From: Robiginitalea biformata HTCC2501
Lineage (GTDB): Bacteria; Bacteroidota; Bacteroidia; Flavobacteriales; Flavobacteriaceae
NCBI RefSeq assembly: GCF_000024125.1
Contig: NC_013222.1
Location: 248,001 to 312,000, forward strand
Length of the DNA: 64,000 bases
Direction of reading: 5' to 3'
Shown here: positions 1 to 53,035 of the stretch, piece by piece
How positions within the stretch are numbered: the stretch's first letter is position 1
How the letters are laid out: each line of letters begins with the position of its first letter
Notes under the pieces: model-generated
The model's database searches: none
Told to the model about the DNA's origin: nothing
The model's input: the letters and a program-made list of their open reading frames with translations, nothing else
Made by a program: the position numbers and the translations under genes

Positions 1-1297
1 CAATTTCAATTATACCGGTAAAAATATATCGAACACTATTGAAGAGGTGGGATTCAATGCATATTTCAAACAGCAAAGACTGCACATTGACCAAGTGACC
101 AATGTATTTTTTGAAGACACTATGGACATCAATCGAAGAATCGATGTCAGCTTGGACGTGGATGTGGATTTTGGTGGTTTCAAGGCCTTTACAGCACTTC
201 GATTGGCAGAAAATTCCAAGTTGACCGTCGGTGCGGATTTTTTGAGGGAACATCGTTTTGGTACTAAAAGGGAGTTGGTTGTGGACATATTTAATCCAAT
301 GGGTGCACAAGTGAATCAAGTGGCACCGCCGCCAGGACAAATCCAACCGGATAGTGATGCGACTTTCTTTGGGGTATTTGCCGTTGAGGAATGGAAACCC
401 AGTGAGGTTGTTGATCTGTTGTTCGCACTACGGTTTGATAATTTCAAGACAGAAATAGAGGACGAACCCTTTTTTATTCCAGAAATCGCCGATTTATACA
501 ATGAGGACAACACTTCAGATAACAACACCGCCCTTACCGGTAACATAGGTGCTAAAATCCATGCATCGGACAGATCAGATTTCTCGATCAATTTGGCCAA
601 CTCATTCCGGGCCCCAGATTTGTTTTCCAAATACAATTTTGCCGATGGGGTCATCCCTAACCCCGATCTTGGTCCTGAAAAAGGAGTATTCTACGAATTG
701 GGTTATGCTTACGATGGTTCAAAGTTCGATATCGGCCTCAATTTTTACCAAAATTTCCTGAATGATCTGTATGTCCCGGTCAGTGTGGATTTTCAGGGTA
801 CTCCGAATGTTCAGAATCAAGCCGTGGGGGAAGCCAGACTGACAGGTTGGGAATATCAGCTGAGCTATGCTATTGGCAAGTTGTCCAGTGTTTTCTGGAC
901 AGGTTCCTATATTAGGGGAAAAGACCGGGAAACTGATGAAAACCTTGCCTTTATGCCTGCGGATCAAAACATTTTCGGATTTCAACTTCGAGATAACCGC
1001 AATGCATTTTTCGGACGGGTGGAAGGCATCTTTACAAGCAAGCAAGATAGACCGGCCCCCACGGAAAGGGAAACCGATGGTTATAGCCTTTTCAATATCA
1101 GTGGCGGAATAAATCTGCATGAGGTCTGGCCAAAGTTTCCCTATTCCAAGTTGGTGCTATCTGTGGACAACCTTACGGACAAAGAATACCAAAGTCATGT
1201 TTTTAGAGGCACTCCTGGAAATCAAACCCGATTTTTTGCTCCGGGTCGAAGCATTAATGCCCAACTCATAATCAAACTGGGCGTCGCTGGTAAATAG
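1..1297 (+). CDS. TonB-dependent receptor, C-terminal part (5' truncated by window edge)
   Basis: The reading frame is open from base 2, so the start lies before the window. What remains is about 431 residues of alternating amphipathic strands rich in aromatic and charged residues, typical of the outer-membrane beta-barrel of TonB-dependent receptors. The segment NSFRAPDLFSKYNF and the end (DNLTDKEYQSHVFRGTPGNQ, then a short strand) match the conserved C-terminal barrel of this family. Such receptors import siderophores, vitamin B12 or metal chelates with TonB energy. The plug domain is not visible, so the substrate cannot be read. Its position ahead of hypC and a nickel-type ATPase makes a nickel or other metal ligand possible, but that is inference. 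Confidence 0.85.
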   Translation, partial: NFNYTGKNISNTIEEVGFNAYFKQQRLHIDQVTNVFFEDTMDINRRIDVSLDVDVDFGGFKAFTALRLAENSKLTVGADFLREHRFGTKRELVVDIFNPMGAQVNQVAPPPGQIQPDSDATFFGVFAVEEWKPSEVVDLLFALRFDNFKTEIEDEPFFIPEIADLYNEDNTSDNNTALTGNIGAKIHASDRSDFSINLANSFRAPDLFSKYNFADGVIPNPDLGPEKGVFYELGYAYDGSKFDIGLNFYQNFLNDLYVPVSVDFQGTPNVQNQAVGEARLTGWEYQLSYAIGKLSSVFWTGSYIRGKDRETDENLAFMPADQNIFGFQLRDNRNAFFGRVEGIFTSKQDRPAPTERETDGYSLFNISGGINLHEVWPKFPYSKLVLSVDNLTDKEYQSHVFRGTPGNQTRFFAPGRSINAQLIIKLGVAGK

Positions 1298-1989: not shown

Positions 1990-2247
1990 ATGTGTTTGGC
2001 AGTACCTGGAAAAATTATTGGCTTTGAAGATACCGTTGAAAGTGTGTTCAAAATAGGCAAGGTTTCCTTTGATGGAATAGTGAAGAAAATCAATCTGGGG
2101 CTGGTACCGGAGGCAAAAGAAGGTGATTATGTACTTGTGCATGTAGGTGTGGCCATGAGCATTGTTGATGAAGAAGAGGCGAAGCGAACCATGGATTTTC
2201 TTCTGGGAACGGACGAACTTGATGATATTCGACCCGATGAGGAATAA
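1990..2247 (+). CDS. hypC: [NiFe]-hydrogenase maturation chaperone HypC
   Basis: An 85-residue protein beginning MCLAVPGKI, the invariant HypC/HupF/HybG start whose Cys2 carries the Fe(CN)2CO precursor and contacts the large subunit before nickel insertion. Length and the acidic C-terminal tail fit the family. It acts in the cytoplasm with HypD and the hydrogenase large subunit. None of hypA, hypB, hypD, hypE or hypF is in the window, so they must lie to the left or elsewhere. The CooC-like ATPase gene starts 15 bases downstream. Confidence 0.95.
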   Translation: MCLAVPGKIIGFEDTVESVFKIGKVSFDGIVKKINLGLVPEAKEGDYVLVHVGVAMSIVDEEEAKRTMDFLLGTDELDDIRPDEE

Positions 2248-2262
2248 TAATACCAAATTGAA

Positions 2263-3033
2263 ATGAAGATAGCAATAGCAGGAAAAGGAGGGGTAGGCAA
2301 AACGACCATTAGCGGTACACTTTGTCGTATTTTAGGAGCCAAGGGGGATAAAGTACTTGCTATTGATGGCGATCCCAATCCCAATCTCTCCATTGTTTTG
2401 GGAATTGACAAATCTGATGCGGGGCCACCTAATTTAAGTACCGATATCATCGAAAGGGTTGAGACTGAAGATGGCAAATGGAAATTTCAAGTAAGGATGC
2501 CATTTCAGGAAGTCTTGGAAACCTATGGGCAAAAAGCCACGGATAACGTGACCTTATTAATGGTGGGCAAGCCCGAAAAGGCCGGTACCGGATGTATGTG
2601 CGGTTCCCATACAGTAGTCCGCGAATTGGTGAATGCTGCACTAAGTTCAGAACAGGGACAAATCATGGTTTTGGATACGGAGGCATCCTTAGAGCATATG
2701 AAGCGCGGTACTTCGAAGTACGTGGATAAAATATATACTGTGGTGGAACCTTACTACAGATCGCTTGAGGCAGCCTCAAGATTTGCTGAAATGGCACAAC
2801 AATTAGGCATTGGACAGGTTGAGGCCATTGCCAATAAAGTACGGACCAAAGAGGATGAAATGGCGATACGCGAATACTGTGCAAAGATAAACCTACCTAT
2901 AGCGGTATTTGTGCCCTTTGATGAACAGGTCATGGCAGCCGATTTAAAAGGAAAATCTGTAATAGATTTTGACCCGGAGGCGAAAGTTGTAAAAGCCCTG
3001 GAAGCACTAAGTGCTGCTATTTTGAAGAATTAG
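2263..3033 (+). CDS. CooC-like nickel-insertion ATPase (MinD/SIMIBI family)
   Basis: A 256-residue P-loop ATPase. The deviant Walker A GKGGVGKTT (residues 7-15) with its signature lysine, the switch region DGDPNPNLSIVLG and the GTGCMCGSH motif (Cys-x-Cys, near residue 112) match CooC, which loads nickel into carbon monoxide dehydrogenase. There is no CO dehydrogenase in the window, so here it may deliver nickel to the hydrogenase or stand in for HypB; that is inference from its place directly after hypC. It converges with the minus-strand operon, the two stop codons being one base apart. Confidence 0.85.
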   Translation: MKIAIAGKGGVGKTTISGTLCRILGAKGDKVLAIDGDPNPNLSIVLGIDKSDAGPPNLSTDIIERVETEDGKWKFQVRMPFQEVLETYGQKATDNVTLLMVGKPEKAGTGCMCGSHTVVRELVNAALSSEQGQIMVLDTEASLEHMKRGTSKYVDKIYTVVEPYYRSLEAASRFAEMAQQLGIGQVEAIANKVRTKEDEMAIREYCAKINLPIAVFVPFDEQVMAADLKGKSVIDFDPEAKVVKALEALSAAILKN

Positions 3034-3034
3034 T

Positions 3035-4018
3035 TCAACGCTCCACAAGTTCCGAGCCATCTCTTCTGTTGAAGAAACCATCGGGTAATTCGCGGCCCAA
3101 ATCAACATCTGAATATACATATTCGTCCATGACCTTGCCATTGGGCCAATAACGGGTCCAACGATGGCTGAATGTAATTCCATCCACGGTTTTGTGATCG
3201 GTCCAATAAATTTCTTCAGGTCTGGTCTCTCCCTTATCGGATTTGTTGTAATATTCCACCTTGTGTATCAGTTTATCCTGAGTGTCGACATAAAATCGCC
3301 AACTGTCCTTCCCTACTTCAGGATCATACGAAATATCCAGTAAAGTAGGTTCTTTGCCGGACCCTCCCAATAGGTTCAACTCGGCGATATTGAAGCCTGT
3401 AGACGCCAAACTTGCGTTCACGCCCCTATCTTTCAGTTTAAAGGGCATTGAAAACCTGAAGAACGCCATTGACGAAGCGCACTGGGGGTCGCAGAATTTA
3501 GAATCACACATCATGCCCTCTTCCTTGGCGGCAATCATCGGATCAACGGTTTGATTGTCCTTTGTTGCCCAAAAGCCATAATCATCTTTGCCCACAACTA
3601 CTTCGCTATCGTTATCTCCGACAGATTTAACCTGGAGCTTTAGCCCTTCCACGGTTCGTTTAAAGTAAAAGGTCTCTTCGGTAGATTTTAATAATTCCCC
3701 CGTTTCGTCATATAAGTTGTGGGTACGGGTAAACTGTCCTTGATCAATATCGTTCCATGTATCCAGGCCACCGGCAGCGTCAACAATCTCATCCACAAAT
3801 TCCGCTCCCGTGGGCTCCCTTAGTAAATTTTCCCACGCATAATAACCTACAACAGCTAGGGCAAGCACCAATGCCCCTGCCGATAACAATTGCATACGCT
3901 TAACGGTGATGGGTCTTACCAAATCCTTAACCTGTAAATCAACCCACCAAGGAATTTTTTCTTCTGATTTTTTCTGTGATTCTTTTGGGCCCTTCGAAGG
4001 CTTAATGTCTTGATTCAT
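3035..4018 (-). CDS. Membrane-anchored DUF6503-like protein with a Cys cluster (hydrogenase operon)
   Basis: A 327-residue protein. A lysine-rich cytoplasmic N-terminus (about 1-40) is followed by one transmembrane segment (LLSAGALVLALAVVGYYAW, about 44-62) and an exported beta-rich domain. That domain starts with a helix (VDEIVDAAGGLDTW) also found in the lipoprotein at 4612-5469, so the two are diverged paralogues. Both resemble secreted Bacteroidota DUF6503 proteins with a LolA-like fold. This copy has an insertion CDSKFCDPQC (Cys-x4-Cys-x3-Cys) that could bind metal or a cofactor. It is the last gene of the hydrogenase operon, 69 bases after the maturation protease. Function unknown; an outward-facing accessory or electron-transfer role is a guess. 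Confidence 0.75.
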   Translation of the reverse strand: MNQDIKPSKGPKESQKKSEEKIPWWVDLQVKDLVRPITVKRMQLLSAGALVLALAVVGYYAWENLLREPTGAEFVDEIVDAAGGLDTWNDIDQGQFTRTHNLYDETGELLKSTEETFYFKRTVEGLKLQVKSVGDNDSEVVVGKDDYGFWATKDNQTVDPMIAAKEEGMMCDSKFCDPQCASSMAFFRFSMPFKLKDRGVNASLASTGFNIAELNLLGGSGKEPTLLDISYDPEVGKDSWRFYVDTQDKLIHKVEYYNKSDKGETRPEEIYWTDHKTVDGITFSHRWTRYWPNGKVMDEYVYSDVDLGRELPDGFFNRRDGSELVER

Positions 4019-4087: not shown

Positions 4088-4606
4088 TTATTCAAAATTT
4101 GCAAGTTTTTTCTGGCTCAACCAATTTTGCAATTTACGCATGGCTTTTGGGAGGGCGTCTTCCACTGCTTCACTCATACCAACCGCAAAATCATCATGCT
4201 GTGCAGCCTCACAACCCAGTATATACACTTCATTGGGCAATACCTTCAGTGCTTTTGCCAACATCAACGCCCGAATGGGGTTGGTATAGTGCATATCGGC
4301 CAAAAAAGTTCTTTTTTCAAAAACAGGCATTTCTTCGATATCCGAAACCTTTTCCATCTCCCTAAAGTAGATGTGGCCCGCTTCTTCTCCCCAAGCCACG
4401 GCATCCGCCAAAATCAGAATATCATAGCCTGCATGTAACTCTTGCACCAAATGAATCCCCCCGATACCTACCTCCATGACCATAATATGGTCTAAGTGCG
4501 AGACAGCATCCCGAAACTTTTTGGCGAACTCAATACCAAAGGCATCATCCTGCTTCAATTCATTACCAACTCCCGCAACCAGGATCTTTTTCAACGCATC
4601 AGCCAA
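4088..4606 (-). CDS. Hydrogenase maturation endopeptidase (HyaD/HycI family)
   Basis: A 172-residue protein. The family start ILVAGVGNELKQDDAFGIEFA (residues 8-28) matches the GxGNxLxxDDxxG signature, and VMEVGIGGIHLVQEL (about 43-57) supplies an acidic nickel-sensing residue. These proteases cleave the C-terminal extension of the large subunit after nickel is inserted. The substrate is presumably the large subunit at 6654-8528, which has a 22-residue extension after its final His. It starts five bases after the lipoprotein stop in the same operon. Confidence 0.9.
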   Translation of the reverse strand: MADALKKILVAGVGNELKQDDAFGIEFAKKFRDAVSHLDHIMVMEVGIGGIHLVQELHAGYDILILADAVAWGEEAGHIYFREMEKVSDIEEMPVFEKRTFLADMHYTNPIRALMLAKALKVLPNEVYILGCEAAQHDDFAVGMSEAVEDALPKAMRKLQNWLSQKKLANFE

Positions 4607-4611
4607 CCCAT

Positions 4612-5469
4612 CTAGTTCTTTACTTTAAACAATTCCTCTGGTAATTCTATGTCAAATTGAATATTGGAATTACTATAAACAGTTCTTAAGTATACGGGTT
4701 CCCTGTTTTCATTGGAAACATAACTTTTTCTTTCCTTGGTTACCACTATGCCGTCAACTTCTATAAAAGTGTCATAATCGGTATAGGTGTATCCTTTTCC
4801 ATGATCCAAAAAGTTGGCCACAAACTGATAATTGTCTGTATTCAAATAGTAGTTCCATGTATGCATCCCTCCTGAGCTTCCCGCTCCCTTTTCATAGGTG
4901 ACCTGAAGATTGTGAACTATTCTGTTATTGGACAGGGTATCAATTCCTTCATATTTCAATAGGGTTCCGGGAGCCTTTAATTTAAATGGCATACATACCA
5001 TATATTGTGAGCCGAATGATGAATTCCAGGCTGAATTTACGGCCACCTTATCTTCTTGAATTTCCCCGTTTACCAGTTTCCAGGCCTGCTTGCCGTTATT
5101 AACTATTTCGTGTTTGTTACCATCGAGTTCCCAGCTCATATAAGTCTTGAAGGAAGGTTTTAATTGGTACTTATGTATTTGTGCAACGGTTCGCAATAAA
5201 GTTCCGCTGGAATCAAAGCTTTGAATGTTTTTTGTGTAGGACATGGTCTTCTTAGCGGACCAATTGCCCATACCTCCGGCACTATGTATCGCCTCTTTGA
5301 CGAGTTTGTCAGCTTTGCTCAATTCTTCCTTGGCAGGTACTGTTCGTTCTACCGAACTATCTTTTTTAGAATCACCCTTGCATCCCAGGCCCAAAAGGCC
5401 AATCAATACAATAAGAAGAAGACTATGTTTTCTCTTGCTTATCAGGAAGGTTGGTATTTTCAAAATCAT
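4612..5469 (-). CDS. DUF6503-like lipoprotein in the hydrogenase operon
   Basis: A 285-residue protein with a hydrophobic leader and lipobox (LLGLGC, Cys about 30), predicting an exported lipoprotein. The mature part begins with a Lys/Ser/Glu-rich linker, then VKEAIHSAGGMGNWSAKKT, homologous to the paralogue at 3035-4018, and a beta-rich LolA-like domain. It lacks that paralogue's Cys cluster. The start overlaps the previous gene by 47 bases; no later Met would keep the signal peptide, so this start is favoured. Function unknown. Two such exported proteins in an operon for a cytoplasmic-type hydrogenase are unexpected. Confidence 0.75.
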   Translation of the reverse strand: MILKIPTFLISKRKHSLLLIVLIGLLGLGCKGDSKKDSSVERTVPAKEELSKADKLVKEAIHSAGGMGNWSAKKTMSYTKNIQSFDSSGTLLRTVAQIHKYQLKPSFKTYMSWELDGNKHEIVNNGKQAWKLVNGEIQEDKVAVNSAWNSSFGSQYMVCMPFKLKAPGTLLKYEGIDTLSNNRIVHNLQVTYEKGAGSSGGMHTWNYYLNTDNYQFVANFLDHGKGYTYTDYDTFIEVDGIVVTKERKSYVSNENREPVYLRTVYSNSNIQFDIELPEELFKVKN

Positions 5470-5717: not shown

Positions 5718-6116
5718 TTAGTGGGAGCCGCTTGCACAGTTATGGACACAATTGTCAAGTTTGACACCGTCTGGACCGTAACAGAATTCACAATCAGGGC
5801 CGCATTCGCCATGACCTGCTTTTTGCATACCCTGAAAAGCTTCAGCAAACTGTCGACCCCCCTCTTTTTTGCCTGATTTCGATAATTTATAGTGGATATT
5901 TCCATCTTTATCCAGCATCACTAACAATCCGATATCTGTAAGCTTATTTAGATGGTATTCCAAATTTTGATAGGACGTATTGAGAAAGGGAAGCATTTGG
6001 GTAAGGCTTACCTCGCTGCCCATACCTTCACCATGCATCCAATACATGACCTGCAGTATTTCTTCCTTCCAGAACAAGGAGCGCAATGCACTATCTTCTA
6101 CCGATTCATTTTTCAT
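5718..6116 (-). CDS. Winged-helix protein with a cysteine-rich tail
   Basis: A 132-residue protein. Residues about 12-90 look like a winged-helix fold (LNTSYQNLEYHLNKLTDIGLL as recognition helix, then a beta wing ending YKLSKSGKK). The tail, from about residue 100, carries HGECGPDCEFC and later DNCVHNC, giving five cysteines with interspersed His in about 25 residues, which suggests a metal or Fe-S site. The start overlaps the stop of the upstream gene by 4 bases, indicating translational coupling. It may be a metal- or redox-sensing regulator, or an Fe-S accessory protein for the hydrogenase; neither is established. Confidence 0.75.
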   Translation of the reverse strand: MKNESVEDSALRSLFWKEEILQVMYWMHGEGMGSEVSLTQMLPFLNTSYQNLEYHLNKLTDIGLLVMLDKDGNIHYKLSKSGKKEGGRQFAEAFQGMQKAGHGECGPDCEFCYGPDGVKLDNCVHNCASGSH

Positions 6117-6673
6117 ACACTTTCTTCAAATAAAGTATCTCCCCTTAATTTTTCGGTCTCTAAAACAATATCGTTTTCTTGAGCAAACTGCCCTAAAATA
6201 CGCAAAATTTCAGGAATTTTTGCCTCAACTTCAGCTGTTAGATACTCCCCCGCCTGTTCCGCTCCAGGTTCAACATCAACCAAATAGACCTCTTTTGGCC
6301 AAATCTTGAAGTGCTCACCAATGACCAAGAGGTTTTCAACCGAGATGACCCCGGTGGCCGCATCACCAACACAGGCCTGAATTTGTTTTTCAGAAGGTAA
6401 ATGACCTAACCACTGATACACGGATATATCACCAATTTTTCTTTCGGGCCTTTCAATGGCCACCAAAAAAACCACCCGATCAAAAGACTTTTTTAACGTC
6501 TGGAAATATTGGACAATGGCTATAGGTCCCCAGTTCATTTCTTCTACGGTAACCGGGCCATTCCATGAAATGGATTGTAATTGAGGTAGCAGAATTGGCC
6601 CAACCGAATGGTTGCGAAGTATATGATAGCCTACCGTACCAATAAGCACATTTTTACTCGACCCCACAGGCAC
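6113..6673 (-). CDS. Hydrogenase-protease-like accessory protein
   Basis: A 186-residue protein whose start (GTG, overlapping the end of the large-subunit gene by 20 bases) and first strand VLIGTVGYHILRNHSVGP resemble the opening GxGN..DDGxG of HyaD/HycI proteases, but the canonical Asn and Asp residues are replaced. Downstream blocks VEEMNWGPIAIVQYFQTL and VEPGAEQAGEYL keep the general fold order. A true maturation protease is present at 4088-4606, so this one may be a non-catalytic relative used in assembly. It directly follows the large subunit, as hydrogenase proteases often do. Confidence 0.75.
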   Translation of the reverse strand: MPVGSSKNVLIGTVGYHILRNHSVGPILLPQLQSISWNGPVTVEEMNWGPIAIVQYFQTLKKSFDRVVFLVAIERPERKIGDISVYQWLGHLPSEKQIQACVGDAATGVISVENLLVIGEHFKIWPKEVYLVDVEPGAEQAGEYLTAEVEAKIPEILRILGQFAQENDIVLETEKLRGDTLFEESV

Positions 6674-8528
6674 AGGTTGTTACTTCCCGTGTTACCATAT
6701 GGTCGGTATCCTTGGCCATAATATGCGTGGTACACGGCATACAGGGATCAAAACTCCGTATCGCCCTTAAAATATCTATTCCTTTATAATCCTCCGGATT
6801 GTCGAACTTTTCAAGGATCGGAGTATTGAGCACCGCCTCTTCATAGGGGCCCATTTCTCCCCAGGGTGTTCTTGGTGCCGCATTTAATGTGGAAGGGGTA
6901 ATAATCTGATAATTATCGATGACACCGTTCTCAACAATAAGATGGTGGGTTAAAAAACCTCTACCGGCGCCCCATGCACCAAATCCAATATGTGTTCCTT
7001 TTTTAGGAATTTCGTAGGGTACGCTCACTTTGGTTTCCCCATTCTTGATCAAATCCATGGCCAACAACCAATTCTCCATGGCTACCATGGCAGAGTAAGG
7101 AATACAATAGGCCCTTGCCCTATTGCGTTCAAAGGCATTCCAATGTTCGGGAATCTTCCATTCCAAAGTTTTCTCGGGTAGATAGTGCTTGGGCACATGA
7201 ATTTTCATGCTGGTGCCTGTATTTTCCAAGAACCTACTTGCAGGGGCTTTTTGGGCCTTGGCAGTCAGATACATTCGTGTATATGCGCCGGCTTCCATGG
7301 GCATTCTATCCCAAGTAGGAGCGGTATCCCAACTATAACGGTCTTTCCAGCTTTGCTTTCCAGGTTTTGGAATGGTTTCCTTGTTCCAAGGATGGTTGGG
7401 ACTTAAGGGCATTCCATTGGCATCTTCCTTAAAGCGATGTCCGTCCCATTTTTCATAATAAGAGTGCTCCACAAATTCTTCTATCCCGGCATTGAGTTCG
7501 GTAAGTTTTGTGGTGACCACTTCTCCATCCACCAACACTCCTGGAGTGGACCATCGTGCCTCTCCCCATTTATCACAATTTTCAAAAGAGGCATCGTAAT
7601 GTTCCGGTCTATCCCATACGCCAGTATCCATCATGGTGGCAGGGCGAATACCGCACTTAGCATACTCCGGATTGCTTTCCAAAAAGAAATCGAAAACATC
7701 GTCCCAGATTCCGGTTACCTTTTGGCTGTAGTCAAAAAACTTGATCAATCGACTATAGACTTCGTTAAGTACGGTAATGTTGACAGTTACGGAAAGTCCG
7801 CCTGGGACGACTGATTGAGGGTGTGGGTATTTACCACCTATCAACACGTAAGCTTCCCTGGCCACCCGCGTCATGCTCAAGGCCTCCAAGTATAATTTGC
7901 CCTTCAAGGGATTTAAATCTTTCATGATATCCAAAATGGTATCATAACCGTGTACCTCTTTATTCTTGGCTTTTGTATTGGCCGCCTTATCCAAAAGTTC
8001 AGGATTGGTTTCACGCACCAACTCCTCTGAATAATCAGGGCCAGCCAACAGAAAAAGATGTAAAGGGTGATCGTACAGGTACTCTATCGCCAGAAGAATA
8101 TTACGCATTACAATTCCCAATGGTGGTGGTTTAATCCCCAAGGCCATTTCAATGGCCAAGGCAGCAGTAGTAGCGTGCACTCCACCACAAACTCCGCAGG
8201 CTCGACTACTGATATAGGCAGCATCCCTTGGATCGCGCCCTTTGAGAATCACCTCATAACCACGAAAAAGGGTAGCCATGGAATTGGTAGATAATACTTT
8301 CCGCTTTTCCAGATCGACCACACTATGAAAAGCCAAAGCCCCTGCCACTCGAGTTACGGGATCATAGTCGATGTTTCTGATGAATCCATTGCGTTCCAAG
8401 AGCCCTTTTAAAACTTCCTGTTCCTCGCCTAAGTCAACTACTTTATGTTCATAGGGGTCCGCAAGGCCCTCTTTTAGATAAGCATTTCCTTGTTCATCAA
8501 AAGCAATCGGTAAATTTTTAAAGCACAT
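6654..8528 (-). CDS. [NiFe]-hydrogenase large (catalytic) subunit
   Basis: A 624-residue protein carrying the Ni-Fe site. The L1 motif RACGVCGGVH has Cys111 and Cys114; the L2 motif DPCMPCTTH has Cys596, Cys599 and His602. Residues 603-624 form the extension removed on maturation, unusual in ending TTCACGVE with two more cysteines. The enzyme splits H2 to protons and electrons. Overall features, with a Tat-less partner and Bacteroidota host, resemble the group 1h/1l uptake enzymes linked to low-level H2 oxidation; the subgroup needs a tree. The gene is separated from its small subunit by five membrane-protein genes, an unusual order. Confidence 0.95.
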   Translation of the reverse strand: MCFKNLPIAFDEQGNAYLKEGLADPYEHKVVDLGEEQEVLKGLLERNGFIRNIDYDPVTRVAGALAFHSVVDLEKRKVLSTNSMATLFRGYEVILKGRDPRDAAYISSRACGVCGGVHATTAALAIEMALGIKPPPLGIVMRNILLAIEYLYDHPLHLFLLAGPDYSEELVRETNPELLDKAANTKAKNKEVHGYDTILDIMKDLNPLKGKLYLEALSMTRVAREAYVLIGGKYPHPQSVVPGGLSVTVNITVLNEVYSRLIKFFDYSQKVTGIWDDVFDFFLESNPEYAKCGIRPATMMDTGVWDRPEHYDASFENCDKWGEARWSTPGVLVDGEVVTTKLTELNAGIEEFVEHSYYEKWDGHRFKEDANGMPLSPNHPWNKETIPKPGKQSWKDRYSWDTAPTWDRMPMEAGAYTRMYLTAKAQKAPASRFLENTGTSMKIHVPKHYLPEKTLEWKIPEHWNAFERNRARAYCIPYSAMVAMENWLLAMDLIKNGETKVSVPYEIPKKGTHIGFGAWGAGRGFLTHHLIVENGVIDNYQIITPSTLNAAPRTPWGEMGPYEEAVLNTPILEKFDNPEDYKGIDILRAIRSFDPCMPCTTHIMAKDTDHMVTREVTTCACGVE

Positions 8529-8558: not shown

Positions 8559-8834
8559 TTAGGCCAGTTTAAGCACTTTGGCAATTGCCACTAAATGGGA
8601 ATCCACTGAGGACAACCCCCCATGCAATTTTTCCAAAGCTCCATTGATGACCCCCACCTTTTCTCCTAAGGGACTGGTATCATCCTGTATTTTCTGTAAG
8701 CCCCCCGCCAAACCTTCCAAATGAGTGCCGGCTCTTCTAAGAGCAACGATGATAAGTACTAAATATACAACTAATACAAGCACTAAAAGTGTTACTATTA
8801 TTATTGTGGCTATAAACAGAGTCGATGAGTTCAT
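8559..8834 (-). CDS. Small single-span membrane protein 5 of 5 (hydrogenase operon)
   Basis: A 91-residue protein: N-terminal transmembrane helix (about residues 5-32, rich in Ile, Val and Leu), then a soluble amphipathic helix (LEGLAGGLQKIQDDTSPLG ... LEKLHGGLSSVDSHLVAI). It is the last of five consecutive proteins with the same plan between the small- and large-subunit genes. The soluble parts resemble coiled-coil segments of chemoreceptor HAMP/signalling regions in composition only. A membrane tether or multimer scaffold for the hydrogenase is inferred from operon position; no catalytic residue is visible. Confidence 0.8.
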   Translation of the reverse strand: MNSSTLFIATIIIVTLLVLVLVVYLVLIIVALRRAGTHLEGLAGGLQKIQDDTSPLGEKVGVINGALEKLHGGLSSVDSHLVAIAKVLKLA

Positions 8835-8840
8835 ACGCTT

Positions 8841-9131
8841 TCAGTTAATTTTTTCAGCTCGTGTGGCCAAAGTTGTTTTTAGGGTATCTGCATTTTCATT
8901 GATAGACCCGGCCACATCCAACATACCTGAAGCAACACCAATGGTATCGTTTAAAGCTTTGATATGTTCCGTATTGCCTGCCACACCAATACCTGCTTCT
9001 TTCATTTCCTTAAAATAGCGCTCAATTGACCTTGAAGCCAGCCAGGTCCTATGTAACAGGCGCACCAAATAAGGTAATATAAGCACTGTTACTATTAACA
9101 AAATCAACCATAAGATGTTTACTGCATTCAT
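8841..9131 (-). CDS. Small single-span membrane protein 4 of 5 (hydrogenase operon)
   Basis: A 96-residue protein starting MNAVNILWLILL; the upstream in-frame Met would overlap the previous gene, so 9131, one base after that gene's stop, is preferred. One transmembrane helix (about 4-26), a basic turn (RLLHRTWLASRS), then a long helix with heptad-like hydrophobics (IKALNDTIGVASGMLDVAGS) ending in Arg/Lys. It shares the size and layout of its four neighbours but little direct sequence. Probably part of a membrane assembly with the hydrogenase. Confidence 0.8.
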   Translation of the reverse strand: MNAVNILWLILLIVTVLILPYLVRLLHRTWLASRSIERYFKEMKEAGIGVAGNTEHIKALNDTIGVASGMLDVAGSINENADTLKTTLATRAEKIN

Positions 9132-9132
9132 A

Positions 9133-9423
9133 TCAAATGTTTTGCTTAACGGCTGCATTTATTGATTCTTCAAGTTGACCATCCACCACTTTAAGTCCCT
9201 CGGCCACTTCGGTAAGTGCGCCATTCAGCTTGGTGACTTGAACGGGAAGATGTCCCGTCTCGGTTTCGATTGCCCTGAGACCCAATCTCAGTTTGGCGAG
9301 ATAACTTTGACCATCTCCTCCAATGCTGGTAAGAAGTTTTATAATTCCGTGCAGGTAGTACACCAAAACATAAACCAAAAGAAGTACCGCCAAAATGGTA
9401 ATGATCATTAATATCACGTTCAT
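9133..9423 (-). CDS. Small single-span membrane protein 3 of 5 (hydrogenase operon)
   Basis: A 96-residue protein, transmembrane helix at about residues 3-30 (MIITILAVLLLVYVLVYYL), then a helix LAKLRLGLRAIETETGHLP and a second KLNGALTEVAEGLKVVDGQL. The latter resembles the GALEKLHGGLSSVDSHL stretch of protein 5, the best hint that these five arose by duplication. Its start overlaps the previous stop by 4 bases (ATGA), a sign of translational coupling. Confidence 0.8.
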   Translation of the reverse strand: MNVILMIITILAVLLLVYVLVYYLHGIIKLLTSIGGDGQSYLAKLRLGLRAIETETGHLPVQVTKLNGALTEVAEGLKVVDGQLEESINAAVKQNI

Positions 9424-9746
9424 AAACTAGAATTTTTAGAGCTTTGCAACATACAATGTGGACATCCCGGACAACCTTCAATGTGTTGGGTAATGGCCTT
9501 GGAACCTCCAACAATGGCCACTGCGGAGTTCAGTATTTTACTGGCCACTTGATTGGTCTTGGTCAAAAACAAGGGGATATGTATGGTGTTGTTCGCTGTC
9601 AATTTACCTTGCGTCCAAATATCAGCGGCTGTACGGTCAATATCTTTTGCGGTCTTTTTTATCAAATTGAGCAGAAAGGCAACTACCCCAATAACCACTA
9701 GGCCAATTACCAGTGATATTATCCATAATTGTATTCCCGTATCCAT
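9420..9746 (-). CDS. Small single-span membrane protein 2 of 5, with a Cys-rich tail
   Basis: A 108-residue protein starting MDTGIQLWIISLV at 9746; an upstream in-frame start at 9806 would overlap the previous gene. A transmembrane helix (about 5-27) is followed by a soluble helical region and a tail IEGCPGCPHCMLQ with three cysteines and a His (Cys-x2-Cys-x2-Cys). That tail is unique among the five and could bind iron-sulphur, heme or another metal, which would make it a candidate electron relay from the hydrogenase to the quinone pool. This function is a hypothesis. Confidence 0.8.
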   Translation of the reverse strand: MDTGIQLWIISLVIGLVVIGVVAFLLNLIKKTAKDIDRTAADIWTQGKLTANNTIHIPLFLTKTNQVASKILNSAVAIVGGSKAITQHIEGCPGCPHCMLQSSKNSSL

Positions 9747-9765
9747 ATAATTTTCAATTAATACA

Positions 9766-10047
9766 TTATTCCAAAGCTTCTGCCACCAAAGTGGCATGTG
9801 CTTCAATGGCCTCTGCTTCTTTCTGAATACCCGCGGCCACGTTGTTTGTGGTCTCTAATTCCCAAATACTGTTCGTATTGTTCTTTATCTGGGTCACTAT
9901 TTCCAAAGCGGCCCCAGCCAGTCTAAGAATACGTTTGGCAGCCAACCATACCAAAATCAATAGTACTGCAGCAATAACAACAATTACCGAGACCAAGGCT
10001 AGTCCAATCAACCATTCGTTTAAAAGTGCTTCGTTTTCCATTTCCAT
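9766..10047 (-). CDS. Small single-span membrane protein 1 of 5 (hydrogenase operon)
   Basis: A 93-residue protein beginning two bases after the small-subunit stop. A short acidic N-terminus (MEMENEALLNEW) is followed by a transmembrane helix (about 13-36) and an Ala/Glu-rich amphipathic helix (EIVTQIKNNTNSIWELETTN, then EAEAIEAHATLVAEALE). Same architecture as the four genes after it. No cofactor residues are visible. Confidence 0.8.
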   Translation of the reverse strand: MEMENEALLNEWLIGLALVSVIVVIAAVLLILVWLAAKRILRLAGAALEIVTQIKNNTNSIWELETTNNVAAGIQKEAEAIEAHATLVAEALE

Positions 10048-10049
10048 TT

Positions 10050-11204
10050 TTATTTATTGGAACCAGGTTTAGGGCTATCACTAAACTGCATTTTCTCATA
10101 GGTATAATGCATCACCTTTTTGACCAAATTGGGCTCTTTGACATGTCCCCAGCCGGAGGGTACCTTGCCCTCTTTGTTCCACTTTGGGGTCCGGTTTTGG
10201 AACGCCATCGTCATTTCGCGCAAATTGCGAATAACTGTGCCGGTTACACGTGAAATATTGGAGGAAACCATTGTTCCCGGAGCCGTTTTATAAAATGGTG
10301 CAAAACTATCGGGAAACCCGGGCATGGTGCACCCTATACAAGGAGCACCCACATTCATACATCCACCTGCGTGATTTAGGGCTCCTCTTTTGTTTATGTT
10401 GCATTGCACCACTGGGCCCCAACATCCTATTTCTACCAAACATTCCTTGTCCCCATGTTCTTCGGCAAAAGTACCTTCCTCATAAAATCCTGCTCGGGTA
10501 CATCCTCTATGGACCGTTTCATCAAATAACCATGATGGTCTCCCTAGCTCATCGAATTCCGGTAAGGGGGCCAATCCATTGAGAAATAGCAACACGGCCG
10601 CAATGGTCTCGGTAATATTATCACCCTGTGGAGCACATCCAGGAATATTGACCACTGGGAGCCCAAGAGCACTTCGATAATCCTCACCCAATAAATCCAT
10701 GACACTAGCTGCATTCGTTGGATTATTTGCAGCAGCAGGGATTCCTCCCCATGTTGCGCAGGTCCCTACCGCGATGACTGCTGCAGCATGTTCTGACATT
10801 CTGGTTACCCAACTTGACGAAGGTATGGGTTGTGGATCACCATTCTCATCCTCATCGGCCCCGAGTCCAGACCAGTATCCTCCTGTCTGCGCCGCTATAC
10901 TTTCGTCCATAATTGAACCTTCACATAGCACTACAAATGGAGCGCCAAGTTCTCCCTTGGCCGCCAAACGAAAAGGTTTAATGAACTCCTCCCCAGCATT
11001 CACGGATAAAACAGGATGATGTAAAATAACTTTCGCCGCTCCGGGTATTGTTCCGTTTAGAAGATTTTCAACCGAAGGATTTGTTGCACCTACAGTAGCA
11101 ATAGAGCATCCATCACAACTGCCTCCTGCAATCCAAAAGGCATGTACCACATCAAAAACATTGGAAATGGGACCTTGAAAGTGTTTGGCTAGATTTTGTG
11201 TCAT
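10050..11204 (-). CDS. [NiFe]-hydrogenase small (Fe-S) subunit, no Tat signal
   Basis: A 384-residue protein that carries the Fe-S clusters passing electrons from the Ni-Fe site. GGSCDGCSIA holds Cys30 and Cys33 for the proximal cluster; GTCATWGG, NIPGCAPQ and a C-terminal Cys-rich block (HRGCTRAGF, IGCWGPVVQC, GGCMNVGAPCIGC) supply the rest. The N-terminus MTQNLAKHFQG has no twin-arginine signal, unlike classic periplasmic uptake enzymes, so the protein should stay in the cytoplasm. It is the first gene of the operon, with a palindromic AT-rich leader upstream. Confidence 0.95.
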   Translation of the reverse strand: MTQNLAKHFQGPISNVFDVVHAFWIAGGSCDGCSIATVGATNPSVENLLNGTIPGAAKVILHHPVLSVNAGEEFIKPFRLAAKGELGAPFVVLCEGSIMDESIAAQTGGYWSGLGADEDENGDPQPIPSSSWVTRMSEHAAAVIAVGTCATWGGIPAAANNPTNAASVMDLLGEDYRSALGLPVVNIPGCAPQGDNITETIAAVLLFLNGLAPLPEFDELGRPSWLFDETVHRGCTRAGFYEEGTFAEEHGDKECLVEIGCWGPVVQCNINKRGALNHAGGCMNVGAPCIGCTMPGFPDSFAPFYKTAPGTMVSSNISRVTGTVIRNLREMTMAFQNRTPKWNKEGKVPSGWGHVKEPNLVKKVMHYTYEKMQFSDSPKPGSNK

Positions 11205-51609: not shown

Positions 51610-51682
51610 GGTTCCTTAGCCCCGACAGTGTATAACAAACGCGTATTCAACAACGTCGATAAATAGTCAAATCAACTTAAGT

Positions 51683-53035
51683 ATGAAAAAAAAATATATC
51701 GCAGCAGCAGGCAGCTTATTGCTGGCTGCCGGGCTTCTTACCCGGTGTACCAAAACTGAAACCATTACGGAAACCATCACGGAAACCGTAACAGACACCA
51801 TAATCCAAACCGAAATTGACACCCTGTTCCTGGACCCCTCCCTAGTGGCCGAAGGCAAGGAAATCTTCCGGCACGACACCTTTGGGGATGAGGCGTTCTG
51901 GAGTGGAGTTCTCCACTTGGACAAGGCGATCCTCGGGGAGGCCAACGGGGGCTACGGCGACGGTGTAAGCCCGGCTACCGCCCTGGTTGTGGGGCTCAAG
52001 GTAGATGCCGAAGCACTGCCCTCCGAGGTGGTCTCGGCCATCCAGGCCGGGCAGGTAGACCTCGAGGACCCGGCTACTACGGTGGAACTCCTCCGCCTGA
52101 ATTCCGTAGTGGGCGTGAAGGGGAATTTCGATGACAACGGTGATTTGTCCTCAATCGGAATTACGTGTGCACTGTGCCACTCTACTGTAGACGATTCCTT
52201 TGCCGACGGGATCGGCAAGCGGCTGGACGGGTACCCGAACAGGGATCTCAATGTGGGGGTGATCGTATCCCTTACGGATAACGCCCAATTCCTGGCCGAC
52301 CTCCTGCATGTGGACGAGGCCACGGTGCGCACTGTACTTACCGGATGGGGGCCCGGGAAATTCAACGCCGGGCTCATGGCAGACGGGATTGCCACCAAAC
52401 CCGACGGGTCCATCGCGGCGAACTTGCTTCCCGCGGCCTACGGACTACAGGGGGTACACCTGGCCACCTATACCGGGTGGGGGGACGTAACCTACTGGAA
52501 TGCCTTTGTGGCCAACCTTGAAATGCACGGGCAGGGTAACTTTACAGATGCACGGCTCAATGATCCGATCCAGTTCCCCATCGCGGCCGAAAACAATTTT
52601 GGAAACGTGACGAATTCCCCAGACCTCATTACCGGGAAACTGCCGGCACTGCAGGCCTACCAACTCTCGCTAAAAGCGCCTATCCCCCCCGTGGGAAGCT
52701 TTGACGCGGCTGCGGCCGAGCGTGGGAAGGTGGTCTTTGAAGGCGTGGCCCAGTGCGCCACTTGCCACATTGCCCCCATCTTTACCGATGCGGGCCAGAA
52801 CCTCCATACGGCCGAGGAAATTGGCATCGACGATTTTGAGGCCAAAAGGTCCCCCACCGGGAAATACCGGACCACTCCCCTCCGGGGATTGTGGGCCCGG
52901 ACCCAGGGAGGGTTTTACCACGACGGGCGCTTTGCCACTCTGGCGGAAGTGATCGATCACTACGATTCGCACTTTCAGCTGAACCTGTCAACCGCAGACA
53001 AGAACGACCTCAGCGAATATCTGATGTCCCTATAG
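51683..53035 (+). CDS. Diheme cytochrome c lipoprotein
   Basis: A 450-residue protein with two CxxCH heme sites: Cys162/Cys165/His166 (TCALCHST) and Cys358/Cys361/His362 (QCATCHIAP); the second heme region and PFD-like layout recall cytochrome c peroxidase or MauG. The N-terminus is a lipoprotein-type leader (LLTRC, Cys22) with an unusual Arg before the Cys, followed by an ETITETITETVTDT repeat (26-39) as linker. A stable hairpin terminator follows. It likely receives electrons from the neighbouring cupredoxin. Confidence 0.88.
   Translation: MKKKYIAAAGSLLLAAGLLTRCTKTETITETITETVTDTIIQTEIDTLFLDPSLVAEGKEIFRHDTFGDEAFWSGVLHLDKAILGEANGGYGDGVSPATALVVGLKVDAEALPSEVVSAIQAGQVDLEDPATTVELLRLNSVVGVKGNFDDNGDLSSIGITCALCHSTVDDSFADGIGKRLDGYPNRDLNVGVIVSLTDNAQFLADLLHVDEATVRTVLTGWGPGKFNAGLMADGIATKPDGSIAANLLPAAYGLQGVHLATYTGWGDVTYWNAFVANLEMHGQGNFTDARLNDPIQFPIAAENNFGNVTNSPDLITGKLPALQAYQLSLKAPIPPVGSFDAAAAERGKVVFEGVAQCATCHIAPIFTDAGQNLHTAEEIGIDDFEAKRSPTGKYRTTPLRGLWARTQGGFYHDGRFATLAEVIDHYDSHFQLNLSTADKNDLSEYLMSL

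Follow-up and report, generated by a model that had tools for sequence, protein, structure and literature searches.

How electrons drawn from H2 inside the cell could reach the membrane is the question raised by a hydrogenase locus of Robiginitalea biformata HTCC2501 (genome of 3.53 Mb, one contig), in which five small genes lie between the genes for the small and large subunits. The window referred to below is the whole stretch of DNA that was analysed, 64,000 nucleotides in length. We know of no structural answer to this question for group 1l hydrogenases. For Huc, a cytoplasmic high-affinity hydrogenase without a cytochrome b subunit, the passage of electrons has been given a structural answer (PMC10017518, partial text). 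The five genes are themselves in print: short predicted transmembrane proteins encoded between the small- and large-subunit genes of group 1l, which has Bacteroidota among its hosts, have been named HylTM1-5 (PMC9561532, partial text), and the gene set is therefore not new. What is new here, and absent from the portion of that account available to us, is the paralogy of the HylTM proteins, models of their helices, a tail of one His and three Cys on HylTM2, and a probable selenocysteine form of that tail. The original prediction knew of no described function for such a set, and we likewise found none for HylTM1-5 in the open literature searched.

Organization and conservation of the locus

The structural genes are all encoded on one strand, the minus strand, and run S-TM1-TM2-TM3-TM4-TM5-L; all five predicted small frames were recovered between the subunit genes, at 8559-10047. 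The best solved relative of the small subunit HylS (10050..11204, minus strand) is 5aa5_A, HofK of C. necator (E 1e-102). The large subunit HylL (6654..8528, minus strand) matches PF00374 over the cut-off and has 5aa5_C as its best solved relative (E 3e-138), while its score against NF033181, 290 bits, is under the model cut-off of 600; its frame reads RACGVC and DPCMPC, which we take to be the Cys motifs of a [NiFe] large subunit. Judged by sequence, the locus is that of a group 1l [NiFe]-hydrogenase, an assignment that rests on the likeness of its gene arrangement to the published description, the trees having been built with unlabelled loci.

Between the subunit genes, all on the minus strand, lie HylTM1 (9766..10047; 93 or 91 aa, from an ATG at 10047 or 10041), HylTM2 (9420..9746; 108 aa, with the ATG at 9746 the likely start in alignments), HylTM3 (9133..9423; 96 aa), HylTM4 (8841..9131; 96 aa from an ATG at 9131 that alignments favour, or 105 aa in a longer frame from 9158) and HylTM5 (8559..8834; 91 aa). 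The expected gaps of 1-30 bases are nearly right: 2 bases separate S from TM1, 19 TM1 from TM2, 1 TM3 from TM4, 6 TM4 from TM5 and 30 TM5 from L, but TM2 and TM3 overlap by 4. Wider gaps, some of about 80-235 bases, occur in two relatives (L011, L012). Direct reading of the HylS N-terminus revealed no twin-Arg motif, and neither HylS nor HylL has a membrane span, which agrees with the earlier statement that the enzyme lacks a Tat signal and a membrane subunit; by these features the two subunits are of the cytoplasmic type. HylS reads CDGC at the site of CDGD in 5aa5, so that its proximal cluster ligand set may differ. The idea that HylTM2 supplies a ligand missing from HylS was rejected, as the Cys and His positions of 5aa5 are all retained when HylS is aligned with it, and a Cys takes the place of the 5aa5 Asp.

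The surrounding genes include several with likely roles in maturation. A maturation protease is encoded at 4088..4606 on the minus strand (TIGR00072, 94.8 bits, over cut-off; PF01750), and a second, degenerate-looking protease-like protein directly follows the large subunit (6113..6673, minus strand; TIGR00072 E 8e-6, below cut-off). Next to it, a small protein (5718..6116, minus strand) combines an HTH-like part, matched weakly and below cut-off, with a Cys-rich tail, HGECGPDCEFC...CVHNC; it is retained in the Bacteroidota loci L003-L007 and L010-L013 and in the actinobacterial loci L057 and L061. On the plus strand are HypC (1990..2247; TIGR00074, 78.9 bits against a cut-off of 48) and a MinD-like ATPase of the CbiA/MinD type (2263..3033; PF01656, 67.3 bits, over cut-off), presumably CooC-like; hypF, hypD and hypE sit just left of the window. 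Inside the cluster, two proteins (3035-4018 and 4612-5469) have weak DUF6503 matches below cut-off, and frames of similar size appear in the Bacteroidota loci that extend that far. A TonB-dependent receptor between hypE and hypC (contig 247117-249297, reaching window 1-1297) may serve metal uptake.

Absence of the five genes from related loci had been named as grounds for abandoning the prediction; when related loci were inspected, the five were present, and in order. The five genes recur in unchanged order in every Bacteroidota locus spanning the region (L003-L007, L009-L013, L021 and L022), three others being truncated (L008 after TM3, L016 before TM1 and L023 ahead of the end of TM5). Across these relatives the HylTM proteins have a mean column identity of 64-85%, so that the set is not a product of chance. 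The order S-TM1-TM2-TM3-TM4-TM5-L recurs in the actinobacterial loci L057, L060 and L061, the other contigs being short. Flagellimonas allohymeniacidonis (L003) is the closest relative among those compared, at 98% for the small subunit. At E<=1e-60 HylS was matched in 1/395 genomes of a phylum draw, 4/397 of a family draw and 1/198 of a class draw, where the first two counts include the window's own genome and the third includes G777, the genome around which the class draw was made. No Hyl match of at least 60% identity was found among 18 plasmid records. Cold-desert soil and the sea are reported habitats of group 1l (PMC9561532, PMC10305171), which is said to support the persistence of an Antarctic Bacteroidota isolate, while two cultured strains said to carry it showed no substantial H2 consumption (PMC10305171; partial texts in both cases).

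Predicted shape and paralogy of the HylTM proteins

Each HylTM protein has a single hydrophobic stretch, as had been predicted; 19-residue Kyte-Doolittle maxima of these spans in relatives are about 2.4-3.8. There is no K or R in the first six residues and there are 1-4 after the span, a distribution that suggests an orientation with the N-terminus out and the helix in. The further claim that an amphipathic helix follows the span found uneven statistical backing, borderline to good: the hydrophobic moment compared with shuffled sequences (best global) gave P values of 0.00, 0.016, 0.07, 0.024 and 0.004 for TM1 to TM5, with TM3 the weakest.

Because membrane spans exaggerate similarity between profiles, full-length comparisons among the five were discarded, and only the soluble parts were compared. 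These fall into two paralogous families, TM1/TM2/TM4 (E 2.3e-6 for TM1/TM2, 2.4e-6 for TM1/TM4 and 4.4e-4 for TM2/TM4) and TM3/TM5 (1.5e-6); the remaining six pairs gave 0.05 or worse, and reversed and column-shuffled controls never fell below 0.01. Two ancestral small proteins therefore seem, from these sequence similarities, to have been duplicated into five. AlphaFold2 modelled HylTM2 as a single long helix over residues 3-90 followed by a Cys loop (mean pLDDT 77) and HylTM5 as a single helix over residues 3-90 (mean pLDDT 79), in single-chain models whose confidence past residue 40 is modest (pLDDT block means 48-81). With a helical rise of 1.5 A per residue, either modelled protein would project some 80-90 A from the membrane.

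Searches for known relatives returned little. Pfam and NCBIfam gave only weak matches below cut-off for the five window proteins (HylTM5 to DUF948, 17.5 bits; HylTM4 to HemY_N, 18.4), and the same held for four actinobacterial HylTM proteins. Solved structures searched with the TM2 and TM5 profiles contained no homologue, the best match to the TM5 profile being a designed coiled coil (8qae, E 4.5e-4), and a PDB fold search with the TM2 model gave no match. Within the window, a TM2-profile match at 51667-51945 (E 4.4e-4, 1/249 ORFs) looks like an artefact of composition, so a threshold of 1e-4 was applied to the ORF counts, at which 67/1257 forward ORFs and 0/1257 reversed ORFs matched.

The HylTM2 tail and its probable selenocysteine form

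As predicted, one of the five proteins has a Cys tail: HylTM2 ends in CPGCPHC, and Cys is absent from the other four in the window. The tail, His-x3-Cys-x2-Cys-x2-Cys, runs from His88 to Cys98 (9453..9485, minus strand) and is present in 153/153 Bacteroidota-type relatives examined, which were drawn from 120 listed of 323 matches and 120 listed of 2087. The distal [4Fe-4S] cluster of [NiFe]-hydrogenases is likewise bound by a His and three Cys, and we treat the matching ligand set as a lead.

A TM2 profile was then run on 396 genomes from the phylum of G978, an Actinomycetota MAG, and 20 matched at E<=1e-5. In the six strongest, the match contains one in-frame TGA, which aligns with the middle Cys of the tail (HALDCPG*PHC in four, PRC at the end in one, and CPM*PQC in one). 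Sequence after the TGA reads P-x-C-V-L, as in the Cys homologues, with H/R/Q changes at the variable x position. The family of G1056, whose name, Rubrobacteraceae, we take from two database entries (P0196 and P0218), is represented by 39 genomes, of which 8 have TM2: these are the 6 with the TGA and 2 without the tail (G1121 and G1376). An error of short contigs is unlikely, since G1056 carries its TGA-bearing TM2 on a 2.86-Mb contig. A weak match with two TGA codons (G1201, E 2.0e-9) was rejected as a selenocysteine case because the TM2-like frame there stops short of any Cys tail.

Sec machinery was found in every one of the TGA genomes: tRNA-Sec over cut-off in 6/6 (62.9-66.5 bits), SelB over cut-off in 6/6, and SelA over cut-off in 5/6, the sixth (G1307) having a partial match of 226.6 bits. 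Neither tail-less genome has a tRNA-Sec match at E<=1e-10; SelA and SelB are both present in G1121, while in G1376 nothing matches SelA at E<=1e-20. In the window's own genome, where the middle ligand is Cys, tRNA-Sec and SelB do not exceed their cut-offs and SelA has no match. These results should be weighed against the base rate, however; tRNA-Sec occurs in 29/39 genomes of the family and SelB in 14/16 actinobacteria tested, so the machinery is a needed condition in the six rather than strong proof.

Downstream of the TGA, a hairpin, GUCCUC-GGUC-GAGGAC, a candidate SECIS element, starts 9 nt after the codon and is identical in 5/6 genomes, the sixth having one G-U change. Its GGUC loop is the same as in E. 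coli fdhF. The codons GGT-CGA-GGA are kept in 6/6 although each makes up only 8-10% of its own codon family (usage taken from the S and L genes of three TGA genomes, GC3 0.867), and codons for the same residue are identical in 108/126 comparisons after the TGA against 750/1194 before it. Folded one sequence at a time, the hairpin scores weakly (z -0.24 to -1.81; the best fold in G1143 differs), Rfam contains no match to it, and its variation is too small for covariation. In the two tail-less genomes (L095 in G1376, L063 in G1121) an in-frame stretch that includes the Sec codon has been lost, and the 3' arm of the hairpin persists as coding sequence.

The TGA could also be a plain stop, with actinobacterial HylTM2 ending at CPG and the conservation beyond it belonging to the translation start of TM3. 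The second stop does meet the TM3 start in the five TGA genomes shown, so that the DNA past the TGA is also the region just before that start, and both the ordinary hairpin energies and the wide occurrence of the Sec machinery, in family members with or without TM2, would suit such an end. Yet six genomes place the TGA at the sole codon that is Cys elsewhere and continue with P-x-C-V-L, their residue changes are confined to the variable position, and all six have tRNA-Sec and SelB; we consider a plain stop very improbable. The middle ligand of HylTM2 in these six actinobacterial genomes is thus, on sequence evidence, very probably selenocysteine. A Sec at this place would point to a residue directly engaged in redox or metal chemistry, and with Cys exchanged for Sec such a role of the tail becomes likelier. 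If the TGA encodes Sec, current annotation cuts HylTM2 inside its tail: among 120 listed of 235 actinobacterial-type relatives, 66 stop precisely where Sec would stand.

The rest of these 120 listed proteins vary. Three Cys are present in 20, two of which have one residue inserted, the third Cys is replaced by His in 4, and the motif is missing from 30, one of which (P0251) looks like a junk-fused call. The four with His (P0223, P0229, P0240 and P0262) read CPGCPHTH or CPGCPHAH, offering a nearby His for the third Cys, and metal sites often tolerate such an exchange. The missing tails mean that the site is dispensable in places. The proposed electron relay could pass only through HylTM2, the sole member with a Cys tail, and even this path is absent from those 30 relatives. 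A rival reading is that the five proteins do no more than tether HylSL to the membrane and that the HylTM2 tail is structural, for instance a zinc-type knot that fixes the ends of helices, with no part in electron transfer. Such an anchor would account for four of the five window proteins having no Cys, for a gene that is kept after its tail is lost, and for the His replacements, which structural metal sites allow; it struggles with the invariant His and three Cys of the Bacteroidota-type proteins and with Sec at the middle position in 6/8 TM2 genomes of one family, which is hard to explain structurally. We regard a purely structural role as unlikely, if still worth weighing.

Proteins like HylTM, with no tail, also adjoin other actinobacterial hydrogenases, and many are transcribed divergently with respect to the small-subunit gene (L014, L015, L017-L019, L064, L066, L068-L071 and others). 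Sets of three to four such proteins lie at 6763-7639 of L014, 6406-7563 of L017, 6776-7652 of L019 and 7535-8578 of L069, and they are possible membrane anchors for the neighbouring hydrogenases. A whole-genome search of two of the genomes concerned (G977 and G979) with the TM2 profile gave nothing at E<=0.01; a local ORF scan still finds TM1-, TM2- and TM3/5-like frames in them (L014, L019). The large subunits placed for the tail-less sets lie apart from six classical group 1h loci, which form a separate starred clade on a branch of 1.61 that also leaves the window locus outside, in trees that are midpoint-rooted and unlabelled and in which long branches meet at that join (L076); L072, L076 and L102 are long branches in the second tree, from which L065 and L037 were left out. 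At the six classical group 1h loci, 0/350 ORFs were TM homologues at E<1e-2. Because the tail-less sets stand beside sister hydrogenases, the stalk proteins look older than the Cys/Sec tail.

A candidate membrane stalk and known hydrogenase systems

The original proposal, that the five form a membrane scaffold for an uptake hydrogenase of the cytoplasm, remains the best reading of the locus and is partly supported; the alternative offered with it, an electron relay, is possible for HylTM2 only. In our proposal HylTM1-5 would assemble into a hetero-oligomeric stalk of helices, with their N-termini outside and the long helices in the cytoplasm, and this stalk would tie HylSL to the membrane and let it reach menaquinone, much as the HucM stalk does for Huc, although the two stalks appear unrelated. 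The His and three Cys/Sec of HylTM2 would sit at the tip farthest from the membrane, beside HylSL, where they could form a metal or Fe-S site, or a thiol/selenol relay, that passes electrons from H2 to quinone. Taken as a whole, the reading in which a helical stalk anchors a cytoplasmic H2 oxidase to the membrane and bears a redox or metal site at its tip has in our judgement about an even chance of being correct. The fuller version, in which five chains carry quinone and the HylTM2 tip adds a further cluster (His/Cys3 or His/Cys2Sec) or a selenol that completes the path from H2 to menaquinone, is tentative and rather doubtful as it stands.

The tail could instead belong to a maturation or protection factor, serving as a metal-delivery arm or as a thiol/selenol arm that handles peroxide for an O2-exposed hydrogenase. 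A C-terminal Cys/Sec arm after a long helix, as AlphaFold2 draws it, would be suited to such work, and maturation genes are at hand in the locus; however, the HylTM genes lie between those for structural subunits, and no thioredoxin-fold or metallochaperone family was matched over cut-off, so that we hold this explanation to be improbable. The His/Cys3 tail and its natural Cys-to-Sec swap single out one residue of one small subunit. If the fuller version of the stalk reading is true, some actinobacteria would have a selenoprotein as a stalk subunit of a respiratory high-affinity hydrogenase.

Selenocysteine is known from hydrogenase-linked electron paths in FrhA, FrhD and HdrA (PMC1794560, partial text). 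HylTM2 differs from these in being a small single-span protein, and the families presented in the part of that source available do not include it; no Sec protein of the kind, a HylTM2-like stalk subunit, was found in the literature searched, that source included, which tabulates 5 selenoproteins for Rubrobacter xylanophilus. The nearest solved structure of both window subunits, 5aa5 (HofKG of C. necator), is classed in group 1h (PMC9561532, partial text). Group 1h has adjacent S and L genes, whereas five genes intervene in the window locus, and the classical group 1h loci have no TM homologue, four annotated ones having other accessory genes. For group 1m, an ATPase of the CooC type and a pair of small single-span proteins have been reported (PMC9561532, partial text); L064, L068 and L070 are at most candidates for that group. 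In group 1l (Hyl), the published set of short predicted transmembrane proteins, five in number and encoded between S and L, corresponds to the one found here (PMC9561532, partial text).

A close known parallel is HucM, whose helical stalk ties Huc dimers (group 2a) to the membrane and brings menaquinone to them 94 A away from it (PMC10017518, partial text). HucM was not among the listed solved-structure matches at E<=10 to the TM2 and TM5 profiles, a result conditional on HucM being in the set searched. Long amphipathic cytoplasmic helices, as in a stalk of the HucM type, are at most suggested by the modelled helix over residues 3-90 of HylTM2 and HylTM5 and by the moment P values of 0.00-0.07. 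The HucM stalk, however, consists of four copies of one protein that is peripherally associated with the membrane (PMC10017518, partial text), whereas the HylTM proteins are five different single-span proteins.
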